DNA from: Arenibacter antarcticus
Lineage (GTDB): Bacteria > Bacteroidota > Bacteroidia > Flavobacteriales > Flavobacteriaceae
Direction of reading: 5' to 3'
DNA: 64,000 nt
NCBI RefSeq assembly: GCF_041320605.1
Contig: NZ_CP166679.1
Location: 558,001 to 622,000, forward strand
A model generated the notes under the pieces. The model was not told the DNA's origin. It was given only the letters and a program-made list of their open reading frames with translations, and did not search any database. The first letter of the stretch is position 1; each line of letters begins with the position of its first letter. A program made the position numbers and the translations under genes. Below are positions 1,620 through 12,322 of the stretch, in pieces.

Positions 1620-2792
1620 CTAGCTATCCAGAGCCTGCTCTATATCGGCAATAATATCGTCTATATGCTCTAGACCTACCGATACACGGACCATTCCATC
1701 CGTAATTCCAGTTGCCAACCTATCTTTGGTAGAAAGCTTGCTATGGGTTGTAGATGCGGGATGGGTCACAATACTCCTGGCATCTCCTAGATTTGCAGAA
1801 AGGGATAGCATCTTAATGGCATCAAAAAAGTTGCGCCCTGCCCCCACACCACCTTCTATTTCAAAAGCCACCACACAACCTCCAGCCTTCATCTGCCGCT
1901 TTGCTATTTCGTATTGAGGATGAGATTTTAGGAAGGGATATTTCACCCAATTTACCTTGGGATGTCCTTCCAAAAATTGAGCTAGTTTAAGGGCATTCTC
2001 ACAATGCCTGTCCACTCTCAGCGACAAGGTTTCCAGGCTTTTGGAGAGCACCCAGGCGTTAAAAGGGGATAATGATGGACCCGTCATTCTTGAAAAACGG
2101 TAAATTTTATCGATCAGGTCAGCACTTCCAACAGTAATCCCGGCCAACACCCTTCCTTGTCCATCCATTAATTTAGTACCTGAATGAATTACTAGGTCGG
2201 CTCCAAATTTTATGGGTTGCTGTAAGTAGGGCGATGCAAAGCAATTATCCACTATAAAGATCAGGTTGTGTTTTTTAGCAATTTGCCCCAATACTTCAAG
2301 ATCTATAACGTCTACTCCTGGGTTGGTAGGTGATTCTGCATATAAAATCTTAGTTTTCGGCGTTACCAGTGCATCAATTTTATCCAACTCATTAATGGAA
2401 AAATAACTGTGGTCTATATTCCATTTCGGGAAAAACTGCGTAAAAAGGCTATGGGTAGATCCAAAAATATTTCGGGCAGAAATAATATGGTCTCCGCTAT
2501 CCAGTAAGGTTGCAAAAGTAGAGAAGACTGCTGCCATTCCCGACGCAAATGCAAAACCATTCTCTGCCCCCTCCATTTTACACACCTTATCAATAAATTC
2601 GGTGGAATTGGGGTTTCCATATCTAGAATAAATATCGCGTTCCTTTTCTTCCGCAAAGGAAGCCCGCATATCCTCAGCGTCCTCAAATACAAAACTGGAC
2701 GTTAAGTAAAGTGGCGTAGAATGCTCCAGAAACTGACTCCGTTCTGTTTGGGTCCTTATTGCTTCAGTTTCAAATTTATGTTGTTTCGCCAT
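1620..2792 (-). CDS. metZ: O-succinyl/O-acetyl-homoserine sulfhydrylase (trans-sulfuration PLP enzyme)
   Basis: A 390-residue Cys/Met-metabolism PLP enzyme of fold type I. Visible landmarks: SRYGNPNSTEFIDKV near residue 56, FASGMAA for cofactor phosphate binding, YAESPTNPG, the IVDNCFASP aspartate that contacts the pyridine ring, and the Schiff-base lysine in HSGTKLMDGQGR. The DGQGR sequence after the lysine is typical of MetZ rather than cystathionine beta-lyase. It should make homocysteine from an acylated homoserine and sulfide. It lies downstream of the metX-AK-HSD gene and forms a second sulfhydrylase beside metY in the same SAM-controlled unit. A cystathionine gamma-synthase activity cannot be excluded. 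Confidence 0.88.
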   Translation of the reverse strand: MAKQHKFETEAIRTQTERSQFLEHSTPLYLTSSFVFEDAEDMRASFAEEKERDIYSRYGNPNSTEFIDKVCKMEGAENGFAFASGMAAVFSTFATLLDSGDHIISARNIFGSTHSLFTQFFPKWNIDHSYFSINELDKIDALVTPKTKILYAESPTNPGVDVIDLEVLGQIAKKHNLIFIVDNCFASPYLQQPIKFGADLVIHSGTKLMDGQGRVLAGITVGSADLIDKIYRFSRMTGPSLSPFNAWVLSKSLETLSLRVDRHCENALKLAQFLEGHPKVNWVKYPFLKSHPQYEIAKRQMKAGGCVVAFEIEGGVGAGRNFFDAIKMLSLSANLGDARSIVTHPASTTHSKLSTKDRLATGITDGMVRVSVGLEHIDDIIADIEQALDS

Positions 2793-2965: not shown

Positions 2966-5900
2966 TTATCCCTTCTCTGCAATCCGCAAAATATCTCCGA
3001 ACACTCCCCTTGCCGTTACGGCGGCACCTGCGCCAGCTCCCTGGATGACTAAAGGATTTTGACCATAAGATTCGGTATAGATTTCAATGATGGAGTCGGA
3101 GCCTTTAATCTGCCCCAACGCACTCTCTTTAGGAACGGAAATTAATTTTACGTCCAAATTCCCTTTCTCTTTTTGTAGGTCCCCTGAAAGGTCTCCTACA
3201 TATCGCAACACATGATTTGATTTTTGGGCTGCTTTGATTGTACTGAACTTTTCATCTAATACAGACAATTGCTGTAAAAATTCCGTTACTGATCCATTTT
3301 GCAAGGCTTCAGGAATAAGATTTTCTATTTTTATATCGGAGAATTCATTGCACAGATCCAATTCCCTTGCTAAAATCAGTAATTTTCGACCCACATCATT
3401 CCCAGAAAGGTCCTCTCGAGGGTCCGGCTCCGTAAATCCTTGGTCCATTGCTTCCCTTAATATGTCTGAAAACAAGGCGTCTTTCTCCGAAAAAGTATTA
3501 AAAATATAACTCAAAGATCCCGAAAACACTCCTTTTATCCTAGTGATGTTCTCACCCGAAAGATGCAACAATTTTATAGTATCAATCAATGGCAAACCAG
3601 CGCCAACATTGGTTTCATATAAATACTGCTTTTGATTCCTTACCAACTCCGCCCTTAATAATTGATAGTAATCAAACCCAAGGGTGTTGGCAATCTTATT
3701 GGAAGACACTAGATCAAATCCGTTGGCTACAAAATCCAAATAAGAAGCTACAAACTCCTCATTTGCGGTATTATCCACCGCAATAAGGTTTTCCAAATGG
3801 TTTTCCTTGGCATATTTAAAAATATCCTTCAATTGGTAGGGAATCGCTTTAGAATCCATAGCCTTTTTCCATTGTTTGGAAATTCCGTTCCTGTTCAACA
3901 ACACTTTTTTGGAATTGGCTACTGCAAAAACATTGAGATGAATTCCTTTTCGCTTTTCAATGGCTGTATTAGATTTCAAAATCTGATCTATAAGTGTTCC
4001 ACCCACGTTTCCATGGCCAAAAATGGCGATATTCACCTTTTTACTGATCCCGAAAATCTGCCCGTGCATAACGTTAAGCGCCTTGTGCAAGTCCGATTTT
4101 TTAACGACCAAACTCACATTTTTTCCAGTAATGGTATTGTTGAACAATAGTGGTACAATTTGATTTTTGATTAAGGCATTGTACGGTTTGTGAAAGGTAC
4201 TCAAGTCCTGTCCTACTATAGATATAACGGAAACTTGATCTACCACGGTGATATTATTGATATCCTGTAACTTAAAATCGGTTTGGAATTCCTCTTCCAA
4301 AGACGATTTTGCCAGCGCAGCATTCTTAGCGGCCACCACTAGTCCGATTCCCCTTTCCGAGGATCCCTGTGAAATAATACTCACACTGATATTGTTATTC
4401 CCCAAGGTCCTAAAAATACGGGCATCTACCCCAACCTTGCCCAAAAGACCACGCCCTTCCAAATTAATCAAGGCCATGTTTTCTATGACAGATAAGGACT
4501 TAATTCCTTCTTTATTTGTTTTTGCACTGATTAAAGTCCCCTTATTATCATCATTAAAAGTATTAAGGATCCTCAGTGGAATATTTTTTTCGATCAGAGG
4601 GATGATGGTCTTTGCGTGTAAAATTGTGGTCCCAAAATTGGCCAACTCACTGGCTTCACTATAGGACAATTCATCAATTCGCTTCGCTTCGGCCACCAAA
4701 TCAGGATTGGCAGTAAAAATCCCATCCACATGGGTATAATTCTGCAACTCTTCCGCATTTAAATAATTGGCCAATAAAGCTGCAGAATAATTACTACCGT
4801 TCCTTCCCAAGGTGGTGGTTTCATTAAGTTGGTTGGATGCGATAAATCCGGTGGCAATGGAAACCGTATCCGTATCCTGCTTTCCAAATTCACGTACAAC
4901 ATTTTCCTTGGATAGGGTATCCAGTACTTTTGCATCTCCAAAATTACTGTCGGTCTTTATTAACTTTCGGGTATCTACAAACCGTGCTTTAATTCCCTTT
5001 TCCTGTAACAATTGGGTAAGTAATTTAGCCGATAAAATTTCTCCATAGGCCAAAACCTGATCCTTTATCTTGGGGCTAAAATCCCCAAGCATGGCTACAC
5101 CTTCAAACAATTTGGACAATCCTTTTAGTTCCTCGGAGTTGTCGATAGTATTAAATTGGTGTTTCTGATATTTTTCAAAATCTTTAAAATCCTTGTTGTA
5201 ATCAACTCCCCTTGCAGCCTTATCAAGGATGTTTTCCAATTCATCAGTCGCCTTATTCCTAGCTGAGACCACTACCGCCATATTTTCTCCTGCAGCTACC
5301 TTGTCCGATATTATGCGAACAACAGAATTCAGGCCTTTTCCATTTGCTAGAGATCTCCCACCAAACTTTAGGACCTTTATCTTTTTGGATATTCCATTTA
5401 GATCGAAGATTCCCTTCAACAGTTCTTCCATCTGGTTAAATTCGATCAAAAATGCATCATGACCATGTAGGGACTGAACTTCTCCATAGGTTACATTGCT
5501 ATTGGCTTGGGCCAATTTCTTAAAGGTATCCTTATTCTCCTTCGCTGTAAAAAAAAGATCGGAATCTACCCCGATAATATGGATATTGGTGTTGCTATTT
5601 TGAAGTGCTACAAAGGCCTCTTCCCCATTTCGGGTAATATCTATGGTCTTCAACAACTGGTTCATTAATTTATAAGCCGAGAGCTGAAACCGTTCCTGCA
5701 ATTTATTGCCATGGTGTGTCAACCAACTTTCTACATTAAATACCTTTTGCTCCTCATTGGTACTCCTTTTAAATTTCTCTGTAAAAGATTCGGGAGTCCT
5801 ATAGCACAACATGGCGTGCATACGGGCATCGTGTACCGGTTGCTTGGAATTCACCAGGAATTGCTCCTGAATCTGACAATTGGCAATCAACCAATCCGTA

Positions 5901-6352
5901 GACTTCCAATCGGAAGCTACAGGGATTAAATGCTCTGTTAAATTAGGATCGAGGGCAGCCATTTCCCAGGCAATACCACCTCCCAAAGAACCTCCAATAA
6001 GAGCATAGAGTCGACTTACCTTTAGGGCCTCCAATCCCAAAAGAAATATTTTAGCGATATCCCTTGCAACAAAGTCCTTATAACGATCTATTACAAAGCT
6101 ATCATACCCATTCCCTGGAATATTAAAGGAGAGGATGGTGTATTTTTTAGTATTGATACACTTTCCATCTCCAATCAGTGAATTCCACCATCCCTGTTCC
6201 CCAGCTACATTAGAATTACCCGTGAGTGCATGGTTCACCACTATTATAGGAGCTGTATGTAATGGAAGTCCAAAAATCTCATATGACAAATTAATATCCA
6301 GTTTGTAACCGCTTTCCGTAACGTAATTTTGGATTGAAAGTTGATGTAGCAT
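2966..6352 (-). CDS. Trifunctional homoserine O-acyltransferase (MetX) - aspartokinase - homoserine dehydrogenase
   Basis: One 1128-residue chain with three enzymes. Residues 1 to about 318 are a MetX-type alpha/beta hydrolase: nucleophile elbow GGSLGGG (Ser122), acid in DSDLFF (Asp265), His298 in GHDAFL, and the MetX-like CYRTPESF. Residues from about 324 to 610 are aspartokinase: KFGGRSLANG (usual KFGGTS), TTLGRNGSNY (usual GSDY), VDGIFTANPD. ACT regulatory repeats follow (about 620-765). From about 772 homoserine dehydrogenase begins with IFGHGNVGG and includes SSNKIAN and GSLSYIFNTF. Together they convert aspartate to aspartyl phosphate, and aspartate semialdehyde to homoserine and acyl-homoserine; aspartate-semialdehyde dehydrogenase is not in the window. 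The gene lies 140 bp after metY, under the same riboswitch. Confidence 0.93.
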   Translation of the reverse strand: MLHQLSIQNYVTESGYKLDINLSYEIFGLPLHTAPIIVVNHALTGNSNVAGEQGWWNSLIGDGKCINTKKYTILSFNIPGNGYDSFVIDRYKDFVARDIAKIFLLGLEALKVSRLYALIGGSLGGGIAWEMAALDPNLTEHLIPVASDWKSTDWLIANCQIQEQFLVNSKQPVHDARMHAMLCYRTPESFTEKFKRSTNEEQKVFNVESWLTHHGNKLQERFQLSAYKLMNQLLKTIDITRNGEEAFVALQNSNTNIHIIGVDSDLFFTAKENKDTFKKLAQANSNVTYGEVQSLHGHDAFLIEFNQMEELLKGIFDLNGISKKIKVLKFGGRSLANGKGLNSVVRIISDKVAAGENMAVVVSARNKATDELENILDKAARGVDYNKDFKDFEKYQKHQFNTIDNSEELKGLSKLFEGVAMLGDFSPKIKDQVLAYGEILSAKLLTQLLQEKGIKARFVDTRKLIKTDSNFGDAKVLDTLSKENVVREFGKQDTDTVSIATGFIASNQLNETTTLGRNGSNYSAALLANYLNAEELQNYTHVDGIFTANPDLVAEAKRIDELSYSEASELANFGTTILHAKTIIPLIEKNIPLRILNTFNDDNKGTLISAKTNKEGIKSLSVIENMALINLEGRGLLGKVGVDARIFRTLGNNNISVSIISQGSSERGIGLVVAAKNAALAKSSLEEEFQTDFKLQDINNITVVDQVSVISIVGQDLSTFHKPYNALIKNQIVPLLFNNTITGKNVSLVVKKSDLHKALNVMHGQIFGISKKVNIAIFGHGNVGGTLIDQILKSNTAIEKRKGIHLNVFAVANSKKVLLNRNGISKQWKKAMDSKAIPYQLKDIFKYAKENHLENLIAVDNTANEEFVASYLDFVANGFDLVSSNKIANTLGFDYYQLLRAELVRNQKQYLYETNVGAGLPLIDTIKLLHLSGENITRIKGVFSGSLSYIFNTFSEKDALFSDILREAMDQGFTEPDPREDLSGNDVGRKLLILARELDLCNEFSDIKIENLIPEALQNGSVTEFLQQLSVLDEKFSTIKAAQKSNHVLRYVGDLSGDLQKEKGNLDVKLISVPKESALGQIKGSDSIIEIYTESYGQNPLVIQGAGAGAAVTARGVFGDILRIAEKG

Positions 6353-6492: not shown

Positions 6493-7785
6493 TTAGGACA
6501 AAACCGATTTATCCAAAACGGCGAATGCCTGCTCTAAATCTGCCTTGATATCTTCAATATCTTCCAATCCAACACAAAGGCGTACCATATCTTTGGTTAC
6601 CCCTGTTGTTTGTTGTGCCTTGTCATCCAATTGTTGATGGGTGGTACTTGCCGGATGGATAATTAAAGACTTGGTATCCCCAATATTTGCCAAAAGAGAA
6701 AATAGTTTTGTTTCGTCCACTATTTTTTTGGCCGATTCATATCCTCCTTTAACTCCAAATGTAACTATACCACTTTGCCCTTTTGGAAGGTATTGTTGTG
6801 CCAGCTTGTAGTAAGGGCTCGATGGAAGTCCAGGATAATTCACCCAAGCAACTTCTTCCCTATCTTGAAGCCATTTTGCCAATTCTAAGGCATTTTCGCT
6901 ATGCTTTTTGATTCTGATTTCCAAGGTTTCCAATCCTTGGATTATTTGAAATGCATTGAACGGACTTAATGCAGCTCCAAGATCTCTTAATCCTTCTATC
7001 CTCACTTTGGCGATAAAAGCTGCTGCACCCAAAACGTCATGATACACCAATCCGTGATACCCCGGTGACGGTTCCGTAAACTCAGGAAATTTACCACTGC
7101 TCCAATCAAAAGTCCCGGCATCTACAATGACACCTCCCATAGCTGTACCGTTTCCGTTAATGTATTTTGTAAGGGAGTGGATCACGATGTTGGCTCCGTG
7201 CTCTATTGGTTTCACCAAAGCACTTGTGGCAACCGTATTGTCTACGATAAATGGAATTTTGGCGTTTTTAGCAACCACGGAAATGGCTTTTAAGTCCAAT
7301 ACGTCCAATTTAGGATTCCCTAAAGATTCCACAAAAATGGCACGGGTATTATCTTTTATGGCTTTGCTAAAGTTTTCCTCATCCCCAGCATCTACAAAAG
7401 TAGTAGTGATTCCCAATCTTGGGAGCGTTACTGCCAATAGGTTATAAGTACCCCCATACAAACTACTTGAGGCTACAATATGATCCCCAGATTTTAACAG
7501 CACCAATAATGCAGTGGAAATAGCAGCAGTTCCCGTGGCGGTAACTACCCCAGCAATTCCCCCTTCCAAAGTGGCCAATCGTTTTTCCAAGATATCGTTG
7601 GTAGGATTGTTCAATCTAGTATAGATAAATCCCGGTTCGGATAAGTTAAATAAATTTGCGGCATGATCTGTATTGTTGAAGACATAGGCCGTATTCTGGT
7701 AAATTGGCACCGCTCTAGTCCCTCCTGTTAATTTTGTGTCGTGTCCTGCGTGCAAGGCGTTGGTAGCAAATTTTTGAGTACTCAT
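6493..7785 (-). CDS. metY: O-acetylhomoserine sulfhydrylase (aminocarboxypropyltransferase)
   Basis: A 430-residue fold type I PLP enzyme, the usual MetY length and longer than MetZ. Landmarks: FATNALHAGHD at the N-terminus, YTRLNNPTNDILEKRLA, the PLP-binding IVDNTVATS, the lysine in HSLTKYINGNGTAMGG and the C-terminal MVRLCVGLEDIEDI. It makes L-homocysteine from O-acetylhomoserine and sulfide in the cytoplasm. It is the first gene after the SAM-I riboswitch, with a leader of about 300 nt. The next gene carries the acetyltransferase that should supply its substrate. Confidence 0.93.
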   Translation of the reverse strand: MSTQKFATNALHAGHDTKLTGGTRAVPIYQNTAYVFNNTDHAANLFNLSEPGFIYTRLNNPTNDILEKRLATLEGGIAGVVTATGTAAISTALLVLLKSGDHIVASSSLYGGTYNLLAVTLPRLGITTTFVDAGDEENFSKAIKDNTRAIFVESLGNPKLDVLDLKAISVVAKNAKIPFIVDNTVATSALVKPIEHGANIVIHSLTKYINGNGTAMGGVIVDAGTFDWSSGKFPEFTEPSPGYHGLVYHDVLGAAAFIAKVRIEGLRDLGAALSPFNAFQIIQGLETLEIRIKKHSENALELAKWLQDREEVAWVNYPGLPSSPYYKLAQQYLPKGQSGIVTFGVKGGYESAKKIVDETKLFSLLANIGDTKSLIIHPASTTHQQLDDKAQQTTGVTKDMVRLCVGLEDIEDIKADLEQAFAVLDKSVLS

Positions 7786-7847
7786 GATCTTTTTTGTTTT
7801 TTATTAAATTATTAAAATATTAAAATATCAAATAAAAATCCAAAGCA

Positions 7848-7870
7848 AATAGTGCAGACAGTCCACTATT
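7848..7870 (-). terminator. Second hairpin in the metY leader
   Basis: On the minus strand a perfect 7-bp stem (aatagtg/cactatt, at 7848-7854 and 7864-7870) closes a 9-nt loop, followed within a few bases by a U-rich stretch. It lies between the main riboswitch terminator and the metY start. It could be a back-up terminator or an mRNA stability hairpin; the function is inferred from shape only. Confidence 0.4.
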
Positions 7871-7877
7871 ATAAAAT

Positions 7878-7915
7878 CAAAAAGTTAAAAAGAAAGTCAA
7901 TTGCCGAAGCAATCG
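7878..7915 (-). terminator. Riboswitch expression-platform terminator of the metY operon
   Basis: Read on the minus strand, a 7-bp stem (CGAUUGC / GCAAUUG, one G-U pair) closes a UUCG tetraloop with a C-G closing pair, which is exceptionally stable. The stem spans 7898-7915 and is followed by a U-rich tract (about 7897-7878). It begins only 4 nt after the P1 stem of the SAM-I aptamer, the arrangement expected of a switch that terminates transcription when SAM is bound. Confidence 0.7.
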
Positions 7916-7919
7916 TTTG

Positions 7920-8057
7920 TGTTATCTGCCTGGGCCACATTAAAACCCAAAGGGCATAATGTTGTGGTTAGGTAGAATGTAGCACCTTCATTGACATATG
8001 GGTCAAAGGGTTGCTAAGGTTTCAAAGGGTCTATTCCCTCCACCTTTCTTGATAACA
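7920..8057 (-). ncRNA. SAM-I (S-box) riboswitch aptamer
   Basis: The minus strand reads as a full S-box. The P1 stem is a perfect 7-bp pair, TGTTATC at 8057-8051 with GATAACA at 7926-7920. Between them come AAGAAAGGTGGAGGGA, the TTTGAAACCTTAGCAACC core, a P3 hairpin (TTGACCCATATGTCAA), and AAGGTGCTACATTCTACC. All match the S-box consensus words GAAACC, GCAACC and AAGGTGCTA. It senses S-adenosylmethionine. It lies upstream of metY with a terminator hairpin directly after it and a promoter -7 box about 30 nt before it. It therefore should shut off the metY / metX-AK-HSD / metZ transcript when SAM is plentiful. Confidence 0.95.
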
Positions 8058-8086
8058 ATTCAATAAGTGTTTGAACTTTAGGTATG

Positions 8087-8094
8087 CAAATATA
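8087..8094 (-). promoter_or_regulatory. Promoter -7 box for the metY operon
   Basis: The minus strand carries TATATTTG, a perfect match to the Bacteroidota -7 element TAnnTTTG, ending about 30 nt before P1 of the SAM-I aptamer. A clear TTTG -33 element is not evident. Transcription would start near 8080. Confidence 0.65.
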
Positions 8095-8132
8095 GGTAGG
8101 GAAAATTTCTTTTTCCTACTATTTTCATAAAA

Positions 8133-9389
8133 TTATAGATTAAATGCTTTTTTTACTTTATCTAATTCATCCAATTTTTCCCATGTAAACAATTCTACTT
8201 CCTTTTCCACTCTCCCATTATAAGGGGATTCGAATACTTTGGTCACTTTGATGGATTCTTTTCCCATATGGCCATAGGCAGCGGTTTCCAAATAAATCGG
8301 ATTTCTCAGTTTTAGTCGTTCTTCTATGGCAAATGGTCGCATATCAAACAATTGAGCCACTTTTCCGGCAATCTCCCCATCGCTTAAACCAACTTTTGAA
8401 GTACCATAGGTATCCACAAATATAGAGGTAGGTTCTACCACACCAATGGCGTAGCTCACCTGCACCAACATCTCATCCGCAACACCTGCAGCCACCAAGT
8501 TTTTGGCCGCATGTCTTGCCGCATAGGCAGCACTACGATCTACCTTACTTGGATCCTTACCACTAAACGCGCCTCCACCGTGGGCACCTTTTCCACCATA
8601 CGTATCCACAATGATTTTTCTACCAGTAAGACCGGTATCGCCATGTGGACCTCCAATGACAAATTTCCCCGTTGGATTTATATGATATTTTATTTTATCA
8701 TCAAATAATTTCTGGATATTTTCCGGCATTTGTTCCATTACCCTCGGAATTAAAATGGAAACAATGTCCTTTTTAATTTTAGCCAACATCACCTCATCGT
8801 CCGCATCAAACTCATCGTGCTGGGTAGAAACCACAATAGTATCTATCCGCTGCGGCACATTATCATCGGAATATTCAATGGTAACTTGGGCTTTTGCATC
8901 AGGTCTTAGATAATCGATCTGTGTATTTTCCCGTCTTAATTGGGCCAAAACCTGTAAGATTTTATGAGAAATATCCAGAGCCAATGGCATGTAATTGTCG
9001 GTTTCCTTAGTAGCATATCCAAACATCATCCCTTGGTCACCGGCTCCCTGTTCTTCTTTAGAGCCCCTATCTACACCCTGATTGATATCTTTGGATTGTT
9101 CATGGATCAAGGAAATAACCCCACAAGAATCGCCGCTAAATTTATAATCGCCATTGGTATAACCAATTCTATTGATGACGTCCCTAGCAATTTGCTGAAC
9201 ATCTAAATAAGTGCGACTCTTGACTTCCCCGGCCAATACCACCTGACCTGTGGTCACTAAAGTTTCACAAGCTACCTTGCTATCCGAATCGAAGGCCAAA
9301 AAATTATCTAAAAGTGCATCACTTATCTGGTCTGCGATTTTGTCAGGATGTCCTTCACTGACCGATTCTGAAGTAAATAAATATGCCAT
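8133..9389 (-). CDS. metK: S-adenosylmethionine synthase
   Basis: Makes SAM from methionine and ATP. I chose the ATG at 9389, which gives 418 residues starting [17 protein letters not shown]; an upstream in-frame TTG at 9416 adds nine residues not seen in the family. Signature motifs are present: the N-terminal [25 protein letters not shown] for adenine and methionine contacts, and the P-loop-like [18 protein letters not shown]. The gene is monocistronic-looking, with its own promoter and a SAM-II-like leader. It lies upstream of the metY riboswitch in the same orientation. Confidence 0.97.
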
Positions 9390-9476
9390 ATTCGTTGTAT
9401 AACTAAATAAGGACAAGGATTTGAAGAAGCCTAGAGAAGAGGTGATGTAAGAGTTATAAAAACCACCAACAACATA

Positions 9477-9550
9477 AACTGCTTTAGCATTTTGTTACAC
9501 CAATTTTCTTATTGGCCTTCAGAGGTTGCAATCAGTCAAATCCTTCCTCC
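9477..9550 (-). ncRNA. SAM-II-type riboswitch (pseudoknot) upstream of metK
   Basis: On the minus strand: P1 5' arm GGAGG (9550-9546), loop GGATTTGACTGATTGCAA, P1 3' arm CCTCT (9525-9521), a variable segment with a small CCAAT/ATTGG hairpin, then AAAATGCTAAAGCAGTT. The loop and 3' words (GATTT.AC..ATTGCA and GCTAAA) are those of the SAM-II consensus. The defining pseudoknot is present: loop GACTG (9537-9533) pairs with CAGTT (9481-9477). It follows the promoter -7 box by about 15 nt and precedes metK by 88 nt. No terminator is evident, so control may act on translation or mRNA stability. Confidence 0.8.
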
Positions 9551-9564
9551 TAAATTATCAAGTA

Positions 9565-9594
9565 CAAAAGTACAAGAAATACTGAGGTATCAAA
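9565..9594 (-). promoter_or_regulatory. metK promoter
   Basis: The minus strand has TTTG (9594-9591), an 18-nt spacer and TACTTTTG (9572-9565). This is a full match to the Bacteroidota housekeeping promoter TTTG-N18-20-TAnnTTTG. Transcription would start near 9558, just before the SAM-II-like aptamer. Confidence 0.75.
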
Positions 9595-9634
9595 ACTGGT
9601 TTAACAACTATTTTAAAATGTGGTCCCAAAAAGC

Positions 9635-12322
9635 CTACAGATCATATTTTACAGTAAACAGCACATATCGCGGCTGGATAAAATAGGAAGAGGTGGTAAA
9701 AAACAGTTCATTAGTACTATCTCTATCCAAAGTTTTTGTATCTAAAAGGTTTGTTCCCTTGACTCCAAATTCCCAAGGACTGCTTTTTTTCTGATAGGAT
9801 AAATTACCCTCCAAAAAACTATAGGTGTTCTCAATGGTATTTTCCTTGTCACTATAGTTATAGTAATCATAATCCAAGGTGAAAATAAAACTTTTCAGCA
9901 AGGTAGCATCAAGTTTGGCAAAAGGCCTATTGGTAAAATAGGTAGTGGCCCGTCCTCCATTATCATAATTGTTGATGGTGTACCTATACCCCAATTCCAA
10001 ATTAGGAGCATTTTTAAGGTTGGTTGCCAAGGACGAGGAATAATTCTGCGTAAAAGATTCCGATTTCCTTGGTTGCATATCTACCAAATTATTGGTGGTA
10101 GACCAATAAATATTAGCCCCTACCGATGCCTTTATCTTCCCATAAGTACGCTGATACCTCCCATTAGCACTAAGGGACTGGTCTTCCAAATTAGAATTTA
10201 TGGTGGTGCCAACCGTATTTATTCCAATAATCTCCGATGCACTTTTAAGGGCATCCATTCTTTTGGTATAGGTGAGGTTTCCAAAAATATTGGTGAGATT
10301 AAACATGTTAAAACTAAAGAAATTTAAAGAGAGATTATGGTTTAGGGCACTTTCCAAATCTCTATTTCCAGAATAAACAGAATTGTAGTTATTTAAAACA
10401 AATGCTCCTGCAAATTTATTCACATCCGTAAAAGACCGAGTAACCCTGTAGTTAAACCTTATGTTTTCCGATTTCTTAAGCTGTGCGTTAATATACAAAT
10501 CAGGCAGCAGAGCAGTTAAATTGTCCGATACGGAGGTTCCCAACTGCTTATTTTTAGTTCCGTATTGATGCAAGGTAACCCCTGGATTAAAAGTAAAGAT
10601 CCCAGATATTACCTTATAATGCACTCCCATATATAGATCCGAAATGCTATAAGCCACCTCATTGTTAAATTCATCCTCCGTAAAATCTAACCCATCACCT
10701 CCATCCAATATCTGGAAAATATTAGAATTAAAGTTCTGATGGCTTTGAGTAGTTCCCAAAGTAAGGTTTACATTACTTTTAAGGCCGGTAACCCAATAAT
10801 AATCGAGCTTGGCATCCACTTTATTGGTAATGGTATTTTTGGACTGATTTAAATTGTAACTAGATTGATCTTGGTCTACGGGAAAAATATCCCCAAACGC
10901 AAAATTATCTCGTACCGCATTATAAAAAGGATCTTCATCCTGATAAATATATTGTGCCTCTAAGGCAAAGATATGTTTCGAATCTAAAGAGGTGTAATAC
11001 AGATTGGCATTCTGACTAACAGATGTAGGTTTCTGTTTCTTTTTTTCTGTGATTTCATCGGTGACGTTGGAAATAGAACGTACATTTTCCATCTCCTTGT
11101 CATCGGATTGCTTTAAAAGCACATCATAATCAATTTGAAGTCTATCATGTGGCTTGTATAGGGAGCTAAACTTTACCAATCCCAAGTGCACGGTCTGATC
11201 TGTTGCCCTTGCAGCATCTTCTGTTTCGTTGGAGGATATGTACACTCTTCGAGTTTGGTTCTCCATTAAAGTCGCTGTATAGGAATAAATTGCAAATCCG
11301 CTTAAATCCCAGTTTTCCTTTGGGGAATAACTAAAATTTACAGCCGCAAATTTAGTGTCTAGTTCCTTTGCCCTGTTGTTTTGTAGGTTCGACAAACCCA
11401 ATCCATCACCCCCAATATCAATAGCGCTTCCACTACCACTGCCTAGGTTCCGAAATCCGCCGGTAAAATTCTGGTAATCCCTTCGGTTAAAGGGCGCCTC
11501 TCCAATATTATTTAAATCGGTTATTATATTGATACTGTAATCCGGACTGTAATAGAATAACTTTGGATGCGCCAAATAACTATCCTCCGTTCCATAACCC
11601 GCTGTAATTTCCCCAAACCAAAACCGCTTCTTTCCTTCTTTTAATTTTATATTTATGGCTACATTATCCGTATCGTTGGTTAGGCCCTTCATTTGCGACA
11701 CCTCGTTATAATTTCTCAACACCTCTATTTTATCCAATGCATTGGCTGGGATATTTTCTGACGCCAGTTTGGAATCTCCATCAAAAAAATCCTTTCCCTC
11801 TACCATTACTTTGGTCACCCTTTTCCCCTCCACCTCTATTTGTCCATCTTCATTTATTGCTACTCCTGGTAAATTTGCGAGCACGTCCTTCAGTTTTTTC
11901 TCTGTCCCCGTAAGAAAGGAATCCGTATTATAGACTATGGTATCCCCTCTTACCGAAATTGGCATCTCATAGGTAACCTCTACCCCGTCCAATTCATTGG
12001 TTTGCTCGTATAGCACAACGTCCTTTTCTACATTCCCTGATGGCACCGTAAAGGCGAATTCCTCCGTTTTAAACCCCAAATAGGAAACGCGGATCTTAAA
12101 ATTTGAACCCACTTTTAAGGACAGTTTATACAGCCCGTTATGATTGGTAATCCCATAGGCTTCCAATACTTGGGTATCGGAGTTTATAGCGATAACGTTC
12201 GCCATATCGACTCCCAATCCAGTAGTATCCTTAACGGTTCCCGTCAATGTTATTTCTTGCCCAAAGGCCGATAAAAAAATGCAAAAAACCACAACTACTG
12301 AAAAACAAGTTTTTTTGTACAT
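9635..12322 (-). CDS. TonB-dependent-receptor-like outer membrane barrel protein
   Basis: An 895-residue outer membrane protein. It has a signal peptide (about residues 1-21, ending SAFG), a carboxypeptidase-regulatory-like beta-sandwich (about 23-110, TLTGTVKDTTGLGVDMANV), a plug-like domain with LKDVLANLPGVAINEDGQIEVEGKRV, and then a long beta-barrel of the OMP_b-brl_3 type rich in alternating aromatic strands, ending FTVKYDL. Whether it is a true transporter or a barrel without TonB coupling is unclear, as no standard TonB box is obvious. The GLPGLI gene lies 34 bp upstream in the same orientation, so the two are probably one transcript. The substrate is unknown. Confidence 0.85.
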   Translation of the reverse strand: MYKKTCFSVVVVFCIFLSAFGQEITLTGTVKDTTGLGVDMANVIAINSDTQVLEAYGITNHNGLYKLSLKVGSNFKIRVSYLGFKTEEFAFTVPSGNVEKDVVLYEQTNELDGVEVTYEMPISVRGDTIVYNTDSFLTGTEKKLKDVLANLPGVAINEDGQIEVEGKRVTKVMVEGKDFFDGDSKLASENIPANALDKIEVLRNYNEVSQMKGLTNDTDNVAINIKLKEGKKRFWFGEITAGYGTEDSYLAHPKLFYYSPDYSINIITDLNNIGEAPFNRRDYQNFTGGFRNLGSGSGSAIDIGGDGLGLSNLQNNRAKELDTKFAAVNFSYSPKENWDLSGFAIYSYTATLMENQTRRVYISSNETEDAARATDQTVHLGLVKFSSLYKPHDRLQIDYDVLLKQSDDKEMENVRSISNVTDEITEKKKQKPTSVSQNANLYYTSLDSKHIFALEAQYIYQDEDPFYNAVRDNFAFGDIFPVDQDQSSYNLNQSKNTITNKVDAKLDYYWVTGLKSNVNLTLGTTQSHQNFNSNIFQILDGGDGLDFTEDEFNNEVAYSISDLYMGVHYKVISGIFTFNPGVTLHQYGTKNKQLGTSVSDNLTALLPDLYINAQLKKSENIRFNYRVTRSFTDVNKFAGAFVLNNYNSVYSGNRDLESALNHNLSLNFFSFNMFNLTNIFGNLTYTKRMDALKSASEIIGINTVGTTINSNLEDQSLSANGRYQRTYGKIKASVGANIYWSTTNNLVDMQPRKSESFTQNYSSSLATNLKNAPNLELGYRYTINNYDNGGRATTYFTNRPFAKLDATLLKSFIFTLDYDYYNYSDKENTIENTYSFLEGNLSYQKKSSPWEFGVKGTNLLDTKTLDRDSTNELFFTTSSYFIQPRYVLFTVKYDL

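Follow-up and report, generated by a model that had tools for sequence, protein, structure and literature searches.

Why should a single pathway in Arenibacter antarcticus be placed under two unrelated SAM-binding RNAs, with a SAM-II-like leader on metK and a SAM-I leader on the metY operon just beyond it? Both leaders lie in the window, by which we mean the whole 64,000-nucleotide stretch analysed here (contig NZ_CP166679.1, positions 558,001 to 622,000). A genome-wide covariance search of the 4.69 Mb genome, which is one contig, returned a single RF01726 match, the metK aptamer of the window, as the only SAM-II, and three SAM-I, whose targets are the metY operon, part of metH and a pair of OsmC-like genes. 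In the window all elements concerned are on the minus strand and are transcribed in the order TACTTTTG, SAM-II, metK, TATATTTG, SAM-I, metY, fusion gene and PLP enzyme, the last three being operon-like:

9565-9572, minus strand: metK promoter word TACTTTTG (TAnnTTTG), with a TTG at 9591-9593
9474-9555, minus strand: SAM-II long-loop riboswitch aptamer, RF01726 (60.7 bits, gathering 44, E 3.4e-9)
9527-9549, minus strand: SAM-II aptamer, 5' strand (P1 and core), with which the anti-aptamer strand is predicted to pair
9500-9517, minus strand: possible extra hairpin in the SAM-II long loop, GGCCAATAAGAAAATTGG (complementary ends by eye, within an insert of the Rfam alignment)
9408-9431, minus strand: putative anti-aptamer strand in the leader of metK, lying 18 nt upstream of the ATG and predicted to pair with 9527-9549
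8133-9389, minus strand: metK, methionine adenosyltransferase (TIGR01034 equivalog, 507.1 bits)
8087-8094, minus strand: promoter word TATATTTG of the metY operon
7919-8058, minus strand: SAM-I riboswitch aptamer, RF00162 (63.5 bits, gathering 44.4, E 2e-12)
7898-7915, minus strand: UUCG hairpin after the SAM-I aptamer, a weak terminator candidate (terminator scan, -5.6 kcal/mol, U-rich tail)
7875-7897, minus strand: U-rich strand after the hairpin, a weak candidate for a SAM-I anti-aptamer
6493-7785, minus strand: metY, O-acetylhomoserine sulfhydrylase type (TIGR01326, 648.6 bits, cut-off 495.1)
2966-6352, minus strand: fusion of a MetX-like homoserine acetyltransferase part with aspartokinase/homoserine dehydrogenase (NF006959, 779.9 bits, cut-off 726; Pfam domains)
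1620-2792, minus strand: Cys/Met PLP enzyme, O-succinylhomoserine sulfhydrylase type (PF01053, 442.4 bits)

Both aptamers are full length and well over their curated thresholds, the one before metK spanning model positions 1-60 of 60 in RF01726 and the one before the metY operon positions 1-108 of 108 in RF00162; a chance origin of the two Rfam matches was rejected on their scores and conservation. The preliminary description had proposed a complete SAM-I (S-box) aptamer before the metY operon and a SAM-II-like leader before metK, and Rfam bears out the former (63.5 bits against 44.4) as well as the latter (60.7 bits against a cut-off of 44). For the SAM-II element its suggested check came out divided: RF01726 matches over threshold, and the model that it had named, the classical SAM-II RF00521, gave no match up to E 10 in window positions 7700-9900. 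It had held that a score below threshold for SAM-II and related models would speak against the element; the score lies above, via RF01726. Each leader had also been placed behind a TAnnTTTG promoter word of its own, which agrees with TACTTTTG at 9565-9572 and TATATTTG at 8087-8094 and with the relatives: in the family 122 of 128 SAM-II leaders have the word within 45 nt upstream of the aptamer, where flanking DNA would lead one to expect 4.3, and 30 of 46 distinct SAM-I leaders have it within 60 nt, the chance expectation having been computed for the SAM-II count only.

The metK start was taken as the ATG at 9387-9389, preferred to a TTG at 9416, because relatives begin there; it lies 84 nt downstream of the aptamer. 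MetY passes TIGR01326, the model of the O-acetylhomoserine sulfhydrylase subfamily, and fails the cut-offs of the equivalog models listed. The fusion gene, next after metY on the same strand, encodes 1128 residues, with a bifunctional aspartokinase/homoserine dehydrogenase part and with residues 9-317 matched by MetX models under their cut-offs, and the PLP enzyme that follows has its best NCBIfam match at 506.4, below the cut-off of 522. Taken by themselves, the elements of the window are unremarkable representatives of known families. The RF01726 SAM-II long loops have been described with the same sequence and structure model from Bacteroidetes and marine sources (Weinberg 2010, PMC2864571), and the main-text passages of that report examined here contain neither a gene split against SAM-I nor an anti-aptamer strand. 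Nor is the locus a tandem (bi-mechanism) SAM riboswitch, because metK separates the two aptamers. The tandem system likewise combines two SAM classes in a genome, with two proposed levels of action, but there both aptamers precede one gene, whereas here each precedes a gene of its own and has a separate promoter word upstream.

The gene that each class controls could be followed through the relatives. Of the 142 SAM-II loci fetched from the family, 138 have the riboswitch directly before metK; 13 of the 142 lay outside the search pattern and had their genes assigned from tblastn positions (nine metK, two metY and two before metH operons). The remaining four lead metY (L020, L089), a DUF6580-metH run (L104) and a run of QueF-like, DUF6580, metB-type and metH-type genes (L174). 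Genomes G003 and G204, with SAM-II on metY, are without a SAM-I match, and so are those of L104 and L174, in which SAM-II precedes metH-containing operons. All 20 SAM-II loci from the phylum search are on metK (at least three of the genomes, G103, G147 and G029, overlap the 142), as are all 102 exact-pattern hits in genome records, a set that requires the window-type core and overlaps the family and phylum sets in species. SAM-I was on metK in none of 61 loci examined, which comprise 30 from the family, 28 from the phylum and the genome's own three, the best-scoring and not a random draw: the 30 best-scoring family loci precede metH-type (24), metB-type (3) and metX-type (3) genes, and the 28 best-scoring phylum loci precede metY (22), weak metX-like (4) and metH-type (2) genes. 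We also took 20 genomes that have no SAM-II match, G102 and G121 together with 18 from outside the family, and scanned metK and its flanks (up to 1.5 kb each way) with cmscan at gathering scores. In none of them did metK carry a SAM riboswitch, the one SAM-I nearby (L350) being on the opposite strand. The allocation of one class to the biosynthetic operon and the other to SAM synthase, which the preliminary description had read from this locus, is supported in that it recurs over most of the sampled family, and comparison of the sequences supports the wider view that two unrelated SAM riboswitch classes split the pathway between SAM synthase and methionine biosynthesis.

In a hand-chosen subset of the fetched loci the SAM-I lies on the same strand as SAM-II, 1.4 to 3.3 kb downstream, in 15 of 19 cases. 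Elsewhere (L129, L151, L091, L168, L162, L092, L140 and L171) the two diverge, 126 to 328 bp apart, and in these eight loci one short region would contain both promoters.

Both classes are common. Among 249 family genomes, with matches counted at E up to 0.001, SAM-II was found in 245 (239 over the curated cut-off) and SAM-I in 212 (all over it); 210 contain both, 35 only SAM-II, two only SAM-I (G102 and G121, which keep metK and have no SAM-II match in this search) and two neither (G032, G177). In a sample of 148 genomes from the phylum SAM-I occurs in 127 and SAM-II in 21 (20 over the cut-off), all 21 also having SAM-I; they comprise 15 genomes of the same family, two of two from another family of the order and four of five from one family of the class, with no SAM-II elsewhere in this sample. 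The control genome of Bacteroides ihuae has a SAM-II match, so the class is not confined to those groups. Since most of the sampled relatives carry both classes, the two-class arrangement is no local peculiarity and, as far as sequences can tell, looks like a widespread division of labour. A survey of 2007 stated, in its account of the distribution of these classes, that no species had both SAM-I and SAM-II (PMC2258182); it predates the report of RF01726 in 2010 (PMC2864571), and the 210 of 249 family genomes update that statement.

How might SAM-II act on metK? Downstream of the aptamer the metK leader is variable except for one strand, which is complementary to the 5' strand of the aptamer. 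Over 128 of 129 leaders (L100 was missed by the pattern) the best duplex has a mean of -17.4 kcal/mol, against -11.4 for dinucleotide-shuffled sequences; 41 leaders beat all 100 of their shuffles and 86 have at most five as good. Between the end of the duplex and the start of metK lie 12-30 nt in 117 of the 128 and 31-49 nt in the other 11. Leaders also pair better with their own aptamers than with permuted partners (mean -17.4 against -15.9, sd 0.16, with 0 of 5000 permutations as low), although the leaders are related, so that permutation counts and p-values overstate independence; in 105 of the 128 the own duplex surpassed the average obtained with differing partners. The same correspondence is visible in single words, a CAAATC-like word being present in 66 of the 101 leaders with a GATTTG core and in one of the 24 with an AATTTG core, three leaders being unclassed. 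Such pairing is seen again in the exact-pattern set (-18.6 against -13.4, n=102; 21 beat all shuffles), and in the window the duplex of 9527-9549 with 9408-9431 reaches -19.4 kcal/mol against a shuffled mean of -14.6, with seven of 100 shuffles as good, which alone is not decisive. The comparison as a whole strongly supports pairing, with co-variation, between the 5' strand of the aptamer and a strand near the metK start; this covarying SAM-II anti-aptamer strand is new here. In the Arenibacter-type leaders L038 and L308 a pre-start word, GAAAGGATTT, resembles the aptamer strand; it is absent from the leader of the window.

In folding models the start region is more open in the free leader than in controls (0.600 against 0.538, higher in 101 of 128), and with the aptamer removed from play it is about as open as in shuffled controls (0.532 against 0.547, p 0.10). 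The free-minus-bound difference exceeds the shuffled value in 103 of 128 leaders, yet in the models it amounts to only 0.067 of pairing probability (-0.009 in controls), a small effect. Compared with shuffled controls, the SAM-bound state thus gave no support to a hairpin that would generally close the start, and for this reason a count made without controls, by which holding the aptamer reduced the openness of the start in 43 of 128 leaders and increased it in 5, was not used as evidence. Closing helices can be seen by eye in single leaders, with GTTGCTTTT-type and AAAAGCAAC-type strands (for example L006, L008 and L012) or as GGCAT/ATGCC (L039, L040, L049). Because modelled openness is raised in the free leader and not lowered in the bound one, the evidence favours a helix of the free state that would keep the start open, and no special bound-state lock was seen.

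The platform of SAM-I is less uniform, and it bears on the idea, taken from the preliminary description, that SAM-I would control metY through its UUCG terminator and SAM-II would control metK through translation. The hairpin proposed there does exist (7898-7915, -5.6 kcal/mol with a U-rich tail), as a weak terminator candidate atypical of the family: the best fold of a 68-nt stretch reaches -6.7 kcal/mol, and the platform of the window, with metY downstream, combines this weak hairpin with a weak anti-aptamer strand (-13.3 against -11.2 kcal/mol shuffled, 21 of 100 shuffles as good). By eye a hairpin recurs near the same position in many of 17 metY leaders inspected, and terminator-like hairpins of -5 kcal/mol or better occur in 12 of 59 SAM-I leaders (L058 and L213 left out). 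The count falls to 1 of 59 when each of these leaders is given a single mononucleotide shuffle, and it is 1 of 128 for SAM-II leaders. However, 47 of the 59 are without such a hairpin, so that terminators are unsupported as a common platform, and the candidate anti-aptamer strand of the window lies behind the hairpin, which it would not open; no clear antiterminator was seen by eye. What the SAM-I leaders do share with those of SAM-II is the downstream strand: in 46 distinct SAM-I leaders (including L002, with an atypical 5' strand) its pairing with the aptamer 5' strand averages -18.3 kcal/mol against -9.9 shuffled, 24 of the 46 beat all 100 shuffles, and none of 5000 permutations reaches the mean. 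Termination and translation as two separate modes are therefore weakly supported, the difference in hairpin counts speaking for them and the anti-aptamer strand in both classes against, and across the family the shared anti-aptamer design is better supported than such a division. We regard the terminator reading of metY coupled to translational control of metK as unlikely, and as somewhat less likely still a SAM-II that acts on metK transcription, its anti-aptamer pairing masking, when SAM is absent, a Rho-dependent or non-canonical terminator. The composition of the post-aptamer leader, U-rich and G-poor (U 0.38, A 0.31, C 0.19, G 0.12), would suit transcriptional action of this kind, for such composition resembles Rho loading sites. 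According to published accounts, SAM-II is most often accompanied by terminators in alpha- and beta-Proteobacteria (PMC2258182), and the SAM-II of metZ in Sinorhizobium meliloti is likewise thought to act on transcription (PMC9373788). Yet a terminator-like hairpin follows only 1 of 128 SAM-II leaders here, and in 117 of them the pairing strand stops 12-30 nt short of the start codon, as expected for control of initiation. A regulatory leader peptide, from a short frame of 19 codons that starts inside the SAM-II tail (ATGCTAAAGCAG...), was rejected as highly improbable: the frame is open in the window, but by eye the sequence after AAAGCAG is variable in relatives, with no common reading frame.

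The explanation that we consider best, and on balance probable, is that one pathway is placed under two unrelated SAM-binding RNAs, with a translational metK leader and staged thresholds. SAM-I would shut the operons that make homocysteine and methionine, and SAM-II would shut metK. Without SAM the long-range helix would form, leaving the start region open and metK translated; with SAM the aptamer would fold, the freed strand could pair around the start and translation would fall. Control of metK would then operate without a Shine-Dalgarno sequence and mostly without a terminator. The open-start model fits what is described for Flavobacterium johnsoniae, where initiation is tuned by structure of the start region without Shine-Dalgarno sequences (PMC6847099). 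Methionine biosynthesis would go off at a lower SAM level than metK, a staging suggested by published affinities from other organisms, which put SAM-II far weaker than SAM-I: the values quoted are about 4 nM for the yitJ SAM-I of Bacillus subtilis and about 10 uM for a minimal SAM-II of Agrobacterium tumefaciens (Corbino 2005, PMC1273637), and the same source warns that the response in vivo is not necessarily governed by affinity (PMC1273637). By this analogy two SAM thresholds, with the metK brake at the higher one, are plausible.

Rather less probable, at some distance from an even chance and between the two transcriptional readings above, is a historical accident, by which metK merely inherited SAM-II and both RNAs act alike at the same SAM level, with no division between them. 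The anti-aptamer strand is present in leaders of both classes, so the two may indeed act alike, and replacement of one class by the other does occur, SAM-II being found, where there is no SAM-I match, on metY (L020, L089) or on metH operons (L104, L174). Against this, which class goes with which gene changes little among the loci seen, when a neutral choice should vary more, and the affinities quoted above lie some three orders of magnitude apart, although in other organisms (PMC1273637). Under the explanation by two RNAs with staged thresholds, SAM-II would have been added to a metK that previously had no SAM riboswitch, as suggested by its absence from metK in the 18 genomes outside the family. 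More specifically, and at a little under an even chance, the probably weaker SAM-II was recruited to metK in the family and some relatives as part of a two-stage brake, with an anti-aptamer that opens the start without a Shine-Dalgarno sequence and with SAM-II replacing SAM-I where the latter is missing. If this is true, methionine synthesis would be braked first and SAM synthase last.

Related systems differ in the genes served and in the platform. In the S-box regulon SAM-I likewise stands on operons of methionine biosynthesis, but SAM-I of B. subtilis also controls metK (PMC12121620), as against none of the 61 SAM-I loci here. The SAM-II riboswitches of S. meliloti are likewise thought to act on translation (metA) or transcription (metZ), but they serve metA and metZ, not metK, and metA uses a Shine-Dalgarno sequence (PMC9373788). 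Neither the gene split nor the SAM-II anti-aptamer platform was found described in the main texts of the searchable papers. The family offers a natural test of why several RNA solutions persist for one ligand, within the same cells and gene by gene, and it suggests a route to riboswitch control of translation in bacteria that lack Shine-Dalgarno sequences.

Some further observations were made in passing. Upstream of metK in G121 (L338) there is by eye an apparent decayed SAM-II, under the Rfam threshold, which keeps a CGTCAAATCTC word like the anti-aptamer strand. In L104 (3103-3654, plus strand) and L174 (3179-4156, plus strand) a gene for a DUF6580 protein, which may, at a guess, be a transporter, lies between SAM-II and the metH-type or metB-metH-type genes; in L174 a QueF-like gene precedes it. 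The second SAM-I of the A. antarcticus genome, at C1:551053-551204 and about 7 kb outside the window, precedes a 336-residue gene (L035 1881-2891, minus strand) that encodes the N-terminal methyltransferase part of MetH alone and is directly followed by a PLP-dependent dehydratase-like gene (L035 940-1881, minus strand). The third, at C1:1150068-1150169 (L036 2569-2670, plus strand), is the best SAM-I of the genome at 74.4 bits and precedes two genes named OsmC-like on the basis of Pfam; such genes are an unusual target for a SAM riboswitch.
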